Below, piece by piece: positions 58,558 to 60,699 of a DNA stretch of 64,000 nucleotides. Numbering within the stretch: the first letter of the stretch is position 1; every line of letters starts with the position of its first letter. A model generated the notes under the pieces. That model was not told the DNA's origin, ran no database searches, and saw only the letters and a program-made list of their open reading frames with translations. Where the stretch lies: assembly GCF_001423245.1 (NCBI RefSeq), contig NZ_LMOH01000001.1, forward strand, positions 216,563 through 280,562, given 5' to 3'. Both the position numbers and the translations under genes were made by a program. The stretch comes from Aureimonas sp. Leaf324. Its GTDB lineage: Bacteria > Pseudomonadota > Alphaproteobacteria > Rhizobiales > Rhizobiaceae.

Positions 58558-59973
58558 CTATTCCGCCGCGACGGGCAGCGCGACGGGTTCGGCGGCGAGC
58601 CAACCGGAGAAGTCCGCCAGCGCCCGCCGTGCCATCGCGCGCTTCTTGGCGATCGTCTTCTCCTTGCCGCGCAGGCGCTTGCCCTCTTCGCGGGGCACAT
58701 CGACCGGCGGGAACAGGCCGAAGTTGACGTTCATCGGCTGGAACGAACGCTTGCCGCCTTCCTCTTCCGTGGCGAGGTGGCCCCCGGTGATATGGGCGAG
58801 GAGGGCACCCATGGCCGTCGTCTGGGGCGGCGGGACCGCCGTTTCCCCACGCGCTTCCGCGGCCGCGAACCGGCCGGCCATCAGCCCGACGGACGCGGAC
58901 TCGACATAACCTTCGCAGCCGGTGATCTGCCCGGCGAAGCGCAGTCCCGGACGGCTCCTGAGCTGCAGCGTACGGTCGAGCAGCGTCGGGGAATTCAGGT
59001 AGGTGTTGCGGTGGAGGCCGCCGAGACGGGCGAACTCGGCGTTCTCCAAGCCGGGGATCGTGCGGAAGACACGGACCTGATCGGCGTATTTCAGCTTCGT
59101 CTGGAAACCGACCATGTTGTAGAGCGTGCCGAGCGCATTATCCTGCCGCAACTGCACGACGGCGTAGGCCTTCACGGTCGGATTGTGGGCGTTCGTCAGG
59201 CCCATCGGCTTCATCGGCCCGTGACGCAGGGTCTCGGAACCGCGCTCGGCCATCACCTCGATCGGCAGGCAGCCGTCGAAGTAGGGCGTGCCCTCCCACT
59301 CGCGGAACTCCGTCTTGTCGCCGGCCACGAGGGCAGCGACGAAGGCTTCATACTGCTCGCGGTCCATCGGGCAGTTGATGTAGTCTTTGCCCGTGCCGCC
59401 CGGGCCGACCTTGTCGTAGCGGGACTGGAACCAGGCCGTGTTCATGTCGATCGAGTCGAAATGGACGATCGGCGCGATGGCATCGAAGAAGGCGAGGGCG
59501 TCCGCCCCCGTCTCGGCGCGGATAGCCTCGGCGAGCCGCTCGGCGGTGAGGGGGCCGGTGGCGATGATCGTGTGCCCCCAGTCGGCGGGCGGCAGGGCGG
59601 CGATTTCCTCGCGCACCACGCTGACGAAGGGGTGAGCAGCCAGCGTGGCCGTCACCGCCTGCGCGAAGCCATCGCGATCGACCGCCAGCGCGCCGCCCGC
59701 CGGCACCTGGTTGGCATCGGCGCAGCGCATGATGAGAGAGCCGGCGAGGCGCATCTCGGCGTGCAGAACGCCGACCGCGTTCGTCTCGGCGTCGTCGGAT
59801 CGAAACGAATTGGAGCAGACGAGCTCGGCGAGGTCGTCGGTCTTGTGGGCGTCGGTTCCGCGCGTGCCGCGCATCTCGTGCAGGATCACGGGGATGCCGC
59901 TGTTCGCCAACTGCCAGGCGGCTTCGGAGCCGGCGAGCCCGCCGCCGACGATGTGAATGGGATCGTGTGACAT
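58558..59973 (-). CDS. trmFO: Folate-dependent tRNA m5U54 methyltransferase TrmFO
   Basis: 471 aa flavoprotein that makes 5-methyluridine at tRNA position 54 from methylenetetrahydrofolate. FAD-binding [17 protein letters not shown] (6-22), [10 protein letters not shown] with the conserved Cys, [12 protein letters not shown], and [16 protein letters not shown] match the family. ATG 59973 gives [12 protein letters not shown]. It is downstream of the DUF1127/hairpin RNA unit on the same strand and converges on the DUF4153 gene. Confidence 0.96.
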
Positions 59974-60023
59974 GCCGCTTGATATCATTGGCGGCACCGT
60001 CGCGAAACACCCCTCGAAACGAC

Positions 60024-60130
60024 GACACCCGCCGGGGGAGGACCGGCGGGTGTCGGGATGAAGCCTGCGAATGGGAGGAGAAGATCGCAGGCTTGGATCC
60101 GCTCGGGCCCTTTGGGAGGAGGATGGGCCG
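60024..60130 (-). ncRNA. Three tandem hairpins with anti-Shine-Dalgarno loops (CcsR/cuckoo-like sRNA cluster)
   Basis: Read on the minus strand, just after the DUF1127 stop: hairpin 1 (60106-60129), stem GGCCC/GGGCC with loop containing CCTCCTCCC; hairpin 2 (60061-60094), perfect ten base-pair stem AAGCCTGCGA/TCGCAGGCTT with CTCCTCCC in the loop; hairpin 3 (60024-60054), perfect 12 base-pair stem GACACCCGCCGG/CCGGCGGGTGTC with loop TCCTCCC. Exposed CCUCCUCCC is complementary to ribosome-binding sites. In Rhodobacter, CcsR RNAs of this kind are cut from the 3' UTR of a DUF1127 mRNA and act in stress response. Hairpin 3 may also terminate the transcript. Confidence 0.75.
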
Positions 60131-60151
60131 TCGCGAAAGGGATCGTTCGGA

Positions 60152-60295
60152 TCAGCGCGTGGCCTGACGCGCGAGGGTGCGGATATCGGAGCGGGCGATG
60201 CCGAGGTCCGAGAGCTCGCGGCTCGACAGCCGGTTGAGCTCGGCGCAGGTCTCGCGGTAGCGGCGCCAGGTGTTGTAGGAGCGGACGATATTCAT
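60152..60295 (-). CDS. DUF1127 family small protein
   Basis: 47 aa, the short DUF1127 type: Arg-rich N-terminal part ([18 protein letters not shown]) and the signature [20 protein letters not shown]. Such proteins are small, basic and RNA-associated; CcaF1 of Rhodobacter helps mature the CcsR RNAs encoded next to it. The same layout here, with three anti-SD hairpins starting 22 bases after the stop, suggests a shared function. A promoter lies about 70 bases upstream of the ATG (60365-60393). Confidence 0.85.
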
Positions 60296-60364
60296 GGTTT
60301 TGCCGATGGCTCGAACGTTGGATCTGGGAAGCGCTGGTTGAAGTCCCGAGCTTCGATAAGCCAG

Positions 60365-60393
60365 ATATAATCGGTTTAACCTTGGCTGGTCAG
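60365..60393 (-). promoter_or_regulatory. Probable promoter of the DUF1127/sRNA unit
   Basis: On the minus strand CTGACC (60393-60388), 17 bases, TTATAT (60370-60365). This predicts a transcript start near 60358 and a leader of about 60 bases. The match is to a housekeeping sigma70 promoter; I did not find a convincing RpoH box, which would be expected if regulation follows Rhodobacter. Confidence 0.5.
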
Positions 60394-60420
60394 GGCCCGA
60401 ACTGCATGGCAGCCTTGCGG

Positions 60421-60437
60421 ATTGTGCAATGCACAAT
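60421..60437. promoter_or_regulatory. 17-base palindrome upstream of the DUF1127 promoter
   Basis: ATTGTGCAATGCACAAT: arms ATTGTGC and GCACAAT are exact complements around AAT. It lies 28 bases upstream of the -35 box, an activator-type position. Regulator unknown. Confidence 0.4.
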
Positions 60438-60615
60438 GCTGCGAGACCGGCATGGAAAGCGGCCTGCGTTAACGGTCTTGAAAGGACGTCGTGATCCGAG
60501 CCTGATCCGAGCCAAAGGCCGTAGCGAGCCTTCGGCGCAGCCCCTTTTCGTCGTGGCGTGCCCGGACGGGCGATGCTATAGCGACGCGGCGCACCGCATG
60601 TCGTGGCGCGACCGT

Positions 60616-60699
60616 GCGGGTGTGGCGAAACTGGTAGACGCACTAGATTTAGGTTCTAGCGCCAAAAGCGTGGGGGTTCGAGTCCCTCCACCCGCACCA
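60616..60699 (+). tRNA. tRNA-Leu (TAG)
   Basis: 84 nt with a long variable arm. Acceptor GCGGGTG pairs with CACCCGC, discriminator A, CCA encoded. Anticodon stem CTAGA/TCTAG with loop TTTAGGT gives anticodon TAG. T arm GGGGG-TTCGAGT-CCCTC. Decodes CUN codons, mainly CUA/CUG. A TATAG-like -10 lies near 60577, without a clear -35. Confidence 0.97.

Follow-up and report, generated by a model that had tools for sequence, protein, structure and literature searches.

What is encoded between a small DUF1127 gene and the tRNA methyltransferase gene trmFO, and how would it be expressed? This question is raised by a locus in the window, the whole stretch of 64,000 nucleotides of Aureimonas sp. Leaf324 analysed here, in which three hairpins with anti-Shine-Dalgarno (aSD) loops lie between the two genes (Table 1). 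A preliminary description had noted a DUF1127 gene followed by three such hairpins on the same strand and directly upstream of trmFO. We confirm this arrangement: the gene product matches PF06568, the array folds far more stably than shuffled sequence, and the trmFO start codon lies 49 nt past hairpin 3.

Table 1. Features of the locus, in positions of the window
Feature	Position	Strand	Evidence and remarks
DUF1127 small-protein gene	60152..60295	-	47 aa; PF06568, E 1.4e-14, 54.0 bits against a cut-off of 23.3
αr14 small RNA, three anti-Shine-Dalgarno hairpins 3' of DUF1127	60020..60141	-	RF02344
Hairpin 1, loop AUCCUCCUCCCAAA	60100..60135 (inner stem-loop 60129-60106)	-	Rfam alignment, fold, pair counts (19 sequences)
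Hairpin 2, loop UCUUCUCCUCCCAU	60061..60094	-	Rfam alignment, fold
Hairpin 3, loop UCCUCCC, 13-bp stem	60023..60055	-	Fold, hairpin scan; without a clear U-tract behind it
Box CAAGGCTGCCATGCA	60403..60417	-	13/15 identical to the VtlR motif CAATGCAGCCATGCA reported for Brucella (PMC12595884)
TGCA-N6-GCAA	60415..60428	-	Near the LsrB motif TGCA-N6-GCAT reported for S. meliloti (PMC10746234)
-10-like element TTATAT	60365..60370	-	32 nt behind the box; inferred transcription start near 60358
trmFO (tRNA m5U54 methyltransferase)	58558..59973	-	NF003739, 686 bits against a cut-off of 262

The segment that holds the array (60015-60151) folds with -64.8 kcal/mol (z = -7.2), which none of 200 shuffles matched. 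Lone hairpins with a TCCTCC loop are frequent in the window (11 on the minus and 8 on the plus strand), as they would be if the array consisted of chance G+C-rich hairpins or decayed terminators. However, three of them within 130 nt occur at this site alone. When both strands of 100 shuffled windows were scanned (200 scans), the biggest cluster comprised one hairpin in 190 scans and two in 10 scans, but never three. An Rfam match above cut-off, covariation and a strand control at trmFO loci, all described below, add to this. The comparative data refute a chance or decayed-terminator origin, the probability of which we put at practically nil.

The covariance model of the αr14 family (RF02344) matched positions 60141-60020 with 68.1 bits, above its gathering score of 58.8. 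Three hairpins, variable stems and an aSD motif in each loop, the structural marks of αr14, are all present: loop 1 carries the full CCUCCUCCC, and the motif is shortened to CUCCUCCC in loop 2 and to UCCUCCC in loop 3. The cuckoo RNA family of Reinkensmeier and Giegerich (2015) reportedly consists of adjacent hairpins with CCUCCUCCC loops. The preliminary description had assigned the array to the CcsR/cuckoo type. As regards arrangement this label is right, since aSD hairpins lie directly behind a DUF1127 gene of the same strand and CIN1 loci are reported to be DUF1127 genes associated with CcsR-like RNAs in α-proteobacteria (PMC10253847). As regards the sequence family it had to give way to αr14: the array reached 23.6 bits with the CcsR1 model (RF02791; cut-off 65.3 bits), and the best match genome-wide scored 20.4, with none above cut-off, so that CcsR1 membership is ruled out by score. 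The array also stayed below the gathering score of the 6C RNA model (RF01066; 33.9 versus 47 bits).

In the host genome (4.4 Mb in 30 contigs), we detected four αr14 copies, two behind DUF1127 genes and two alone. At E ≤0.001, αr14 was present in 33 of 41 genomes (the host and its relatives), and in 26 of the 41 it was above cut-off; all 21 genomes of the genus, the host included, contained at least one match. Most genomes of the genus have three or four; there are ten matches in one (G019) and nine in another (G012). Among 249 genomes drawn from the order under stricter filters, 78 had an αr14 match and 42 had one above cut-off. The array is a true, well-conserved αr14 member within a DUF1127 operon. 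It is ordinary in kind, and its three-unit layout is the αr14 standard.

For comparisons within the genus we used 49 loci, which represent 50 of the 81 same-genus αr14 matches; these are mostly the better-scoring ones, so that the counts are biased towards good members. The counts of 49 do not include another 11 loci, which belong to other genera. In 34 of the 49 loci a DUF1127 gene lies directly upstream of αr14, and in the remaining 15 it is absent.

That the loops rather than the stems are conserved, as had been proposed, is borne out by an alignment of 58 αr14 sequences from the genus and other genomes, the window copy included: all 14 invariant columns fall into loops. The preliminary description had named missing loop conservation in sister genomes as grounds for rejecting it; the loops proved to be conserved there. 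Pair counts were based on a closer set of 19 sequences (18 distinct; 17 of the 19, the window copy among them, trmFO-linked), and the window copy supplied the structure, a choice biased towards its own fold. In this set, standard pairs filled 96.0% of cells and two-sided changes occurred at 10 pairs, compared to a mean of 4.0 in shuffles, none of which reached as many (0/500). Controls with slid partners gave 1-5 such pairs. The number of further pair types was unexceptional, with 67 of 500 shuffles equally high. Hairpin 2 showed two-sided changes at seven of its ten pairs (18 distinct sequences), and hairpin 3, which is nearly invariant in the 19 sequences, contributes nothing to the count. 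The RNAalifold consensus of the 58-sequence alignment contained hairpins 1 and 3 only (12 pairs); we attribute the missing hairpin 2 to its poor alignment. One earlier detail did not survive the comparison. The graded motif lengths of the three loops (9, 8 and 7) are not conserved: loop 2 is the full CTCCTCCTCCC in the near relatives L128, L131 and L135, from which the window copy deviates at this point, and a short third loop is the usual state in the genus.

CsrB-type RNAs are built of repeated hairpins with conserved loops. The array resembles them in this respect, and it had been suggested that its units could sponge a CsrA/RsmA-like protein. However, a search with PF02599 found no CsrA gene in the host genome, while the same search was positive in three of 14 control genomes, and GGA does not occur in the loops of the transcribed strand. 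The absence of CsrA refutes the suggestion, barring an unrelated protein that binds C/U-rich loops, and we consider such a sponge extremely improbable.

How would the array be transcribed? Upstream of DUF1127, a VtlR-like box (60403-60417) overlaps an LsrB-like element that lies about 57-70 nt upstream of the inferred start near 60358. For NfeR1, an αr14 RNA, the LsrB motif was reported at -72 to -57 or -60 (PMC10746234). With up to three mismatches, the VtlR-like box was found in 33 of the 49 same-genus loci and was absent in 16; it occurred in one of 59 downstream control stretches, and 60 permuted motifs were found in a mean of 0.37 and at most 4 of the 49 loci. Near the named trmFO arrays introduced below, 21 of 41 had the box (versus 10 of 410 shuffled stretches), and 20 lacked it, including most Rhizobium and Sinorhizobium arrays. 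The spacing is fixed: among 38 same-genus loci with a plus-strand box (up to four mismatches), 31 have an NTANNT hexamer exactly 32 nt past the box, and the other offsets from 20 to 45 yielded the hexamer only twice (at 28 and 34). Of the copies having the box, 14 of the 15 that stand alone and 17 of the 23 linked to DUF1127 show this layout, as do three of the four αr14 copies of the host genome. The exception in the host is its other DUF1127-linked copy, L122, one of the six boxed DUF1127-linked loci without a -10-like element at 32 nt. L122 and three further DUF1127-linked loci (L127, L148, L173) have their box about 331-334 nt ahead of loop 1, and no such element follows it at 32 nt. These four have a different stretch behind the box in common and may represent a second promoter class.

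A strict sigma-70 scan of 59900-60650 detected no promoter-like site, and a terminator scan detected no terminator-like site behind hairpin 3, where the U-run is short. The promoter thus rests on comparison, and a clean 3' end of the small RNA is uncertain. At the level of sequence, box and spacing yield an NfeR1-like layout, in which an LsrB box precedes a σ70-type promoter. The sequence TTGTGCATTGCACAA at 60422-60436, a perfect palindrome of 15 nt, overlaps the region of the activator box. As a candidate for that box it was dropped, since it is not conserved: it is absent from the other 59 loci (one, L174, has a different palindrome), and the conserved element is the nearby box CAAGGCTGCCATGCA. 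Beyond the promoter region, on the plus strand, lies a tRNA gene (60616-60696).

The RNA might also be made from a promoter of its own within or after the DUF1127 gene, independently of the DUF1127 message and in the manner of NfeR1. Stand-alone copies point in this direction: in 14 of 15 the box (up to four mismatches) lies 79-128 nt before loop 1 and is followed by the -10-like element 32 nt further on, so that transcription would begin at or just before hairpin 1. The DUF1127-linked copies argue against it. In 27 of 34 the best site (up to four mismatches) lies 282-335 nt before loop 1, ahead of DUF1127, the remaining seven have no site that good, and in the window about 30 nt separate the DUF1127 stop codon from loop 1. 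A separate promoter appears very unlikely to us. Most boxed DUF1127-linked copies and nearly all stand-alone copies of Aureimonas have one promoter layout, a link that is new. It predicts that an LsrB/VtlR-type regulator runs DUF1127 proteins and αr14 RNAs as one Aureimonas regulon.

A candidate for this regulator is a LysR gene directly behind trxB in the host genome. In Brucella, a thioredoxin reductase gene is reported upstream of vtlR (PMC12595884). Assigned by this neighbour only, the LysR gene would occupy the published place of vtlR; among the NCBIfam models listed for it, none scored above cut-off (best 25 versus 55). An RNA family search of 8.7 kb around the gene had no match, AbcR-type RNAs included, and an AbcR RNA beside it was discarded for this stretch.

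What links the array to trmFO? Within the genus, trmFO lies close behind αr14 in 17 of the 49 loci. These loci come from 17 different genomes of the 21, and DUF1127 precedes αr14 in every one of them. The gap between hairpin 3 and trmFO measures 33-96 nt across these loci, the window's included. The nearest named trmFO is that of Aureimonas flava (89% identical). Among the best 80 of 591 confirmed named trmFO loci (one with less than 1600 nt upstream), 69 have a same-strand DUF1127 gene no more than 2300 nt away. Two or more aSD hairpins were found in the 1600 nt upstream of trmFO in 41 of the 80, each of which also has DUF1127, versus 0 of 80 on the opposite strand, which again argues against chance hairpins. 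These arrays comprise 2 to 12 hairpins. Two Aurantimonas genomes have 12 (L056) and 11 (L074) consecutive aSD hairpins in the DUF1127-trmFO interval, with a unit period of about 137 nt in L056, as if RNA dosage had been multiplied; in L125 (G007) the αr14 unit before trmFO is doubled, resulting in six hairpins. Both Bradyrhizobium (L102, L106) and all five Microvirga trmFO loci (L101, L105, L107, L111, L114) have DUF1127 but no array, and the four Methylobacterium loci have DUF1127 in three cases (L087, L092, L100) and an array in none. The pairing of DUF1127 with trmFO may thus predate the RNA, or have outlived it. None of the literature titles and abstract openings searched dealt with a DUF1127-hairpin-trmFO arrangement; the cuckoo paper lay outside this coverage, so the arrangement has possibly been described already.

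Such a neighbourhood raises the possibility that the hairpins act mainly in cis, as a trmFO leader: transcription would read past hairpin 3, and processing, attenuation or mRNA stability would set the trmFO level. The 17 trmFO-linked loci with DUF1127 in front are consistent with this, and the gap of 33-96 nt leaves little room for a second promoter. U-runs after hairpin 3 average 3.4 in trmFO-linked copies (n=16) and are longer, at 4.35, in the others (n=31), with p=0.02 before any correction for kinship and two loci excluded for want of a stem-3 match. With the short gap, this makes read-through of hairpin 3 into trmFO plausible, as judged from sequence. The strict scan found no promoter for trmFO either, but it also misses the conserved DUF1127 promoter, so that its silence says little. 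Against a leader, the RNA occurs without DUF1127 in 15 of the 49 loci, none of which has trmFO close behind, and the loops would pair weakly with the trmFO leader (-6.6 to -9.4 kcal/mol, compared to -13.3 to -19.8 with a GGGAGGAG site). Moreover, the trmFO-linked L123 and L150 have U-runs of 6 and 5, 10 of the 31 other copies have U-runs of three or fewer, and L137 and L141 have a trmFO-type ending with no trmFO in about 700 nt behind. We consider it unlikely that the hairpins are mainly a leader.

The trmFO-linked copy could also be three things in one: a single LsrB/VtlR-driven transcript would supply the DUF1127 protein, an αr14 RNA acting against ribosome sites and, through read-through of hairpin 3, TrmFO. 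We regard such a unit as distinctly unlikely; its traces would be the weak U-tract and a gene order that is old and widely conserved. If it existed, and trmFO were read through from the DUF1127 promoter, a stress regulator would also set tRNA modification, and stress signalling would govern mRNA silencing and tRNA modification jointly.

The gene, the RNA family, the hairpins with their covariation, the conserved box with its fixed spacing and the conserved neighbourhood are established here, and we think it probable that they form a DUF1127-αr14 operon that works as follows. By analogy to work on NfeR1, CcsR and VtlR, a LysR-type activator of the LsrB/VtlR kind would bind the box at 60403-60428 and activate a promoter near 60365. 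A single transcript would then be made, the 5' part of which encodes the 47-residue DUF1127 protein, with the αr14 RNA behind it, either released by RNase E-type processing or left attached. The exposed CUCCUCCC loops would pair with GGGAGGAG-like ribosome sites and thereby silence messages, as NfeR1 does. NfeR1 is reported to be activated by LsrB and to silence mRNAs via its loops (PMC10746234), and three DUF1127 genes are reported to be activated by Brucella VtlR (PMC12595884). The predicted loop pairing is stronger with a GGGAGGAG site (the range given above) than with the canonical AAGGAGG (-8.7 to -10.8 kcal/mol). The role of the DUF1127 protein is disputed: CcaF1 was described as RNA-binding and as acting in CcsR maturation (PMC10253847), whereas for Salmonella YjiS protein partners but no evidence of RNA binding were reported (PMC12501420).

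Which messages might be silenced? The pattern GGGAGGAG-N3-11-ATG occurs at 29 sites, whereas its reversed form occurs at 15. Domains were scanned for 20 of the 29; L207 was omitted, as were eight with an ORF of no more than 115 aa, one of which lies antisense in a further αr14 copy. The predicted targets include transporters and catabolic enzymes, with Peripla_BP_4 genes at L201 and L211. Transporter domains were found in six of the 20, compared to two of 10 controls. The controls came from 90 AAGGAGG sites, for 30 of which loci were taken and 10 picked by eye as likely genes; with so small and loosely chosen a sample, an enrichment of transporters is not clear. In Sinorhizobium, the ntrB counterpart is a reported NfeR1 target. 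In the host, the ORF next to ntrC on its upstream side, taken for ntrB from its position only, has no GGAGG within 25 nt of its predicted start. A pairing of the NfeR1-ntrB type was not found, and the presumed ntrB without a complementary site speaks against a close copy of NfeR1 function.

The locus resembles the VtlR-activated DUF1127 genes of Brucella and atu1667 of Agrobacterium in its VtlR-type box (13/15 in the window), but the text available of PMC12595884 and PMC7486931 describes no αr14 RNA behind those genes. With cuckoo/CIN1 loci it has in common a DUF1127 gene associated with a CcsR-like RNA. It shares with CcsR1-4/ccaF1 of Rhodobacter sphaeroides aSD hairpins in the 3' region of a DUF1127 transcript, but falls below the CcsR1 cut-off. 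The R. sphaeroides ccaF1-CcsR operon is reported to have an RpoHI/RpoHII promoter, four CcsR units and a Rho-independent terminator (PMC10253847); in contrast, the predicted promoter of the window resembles those bound by LsrB (NfeR1) and by VtlR (Brucella DUF1127 genes). αr14 RNAs are described as having three hairpins, an aSD loop motif, variable stems and multiple copies per genome (PMC10746234, PMC7143759), and the same RNA type appears in PMC3927594. From αr14/NfeR1 of Sinorhizobium meliloti (Smr14C2/SmelC397), the window copy differs in its place behind DUF1127 and ahead of trmFO, in the shortened motifs of loops 2 and 3, and in lacking both a terminator-like site and an NfeR1-type site at the presumed ntrB. 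It agrees with αr14/NfeR1 in the three hairpins, the aSD loops, the variable stems, the several copies per genome and the LsrB-type box before the promoter.
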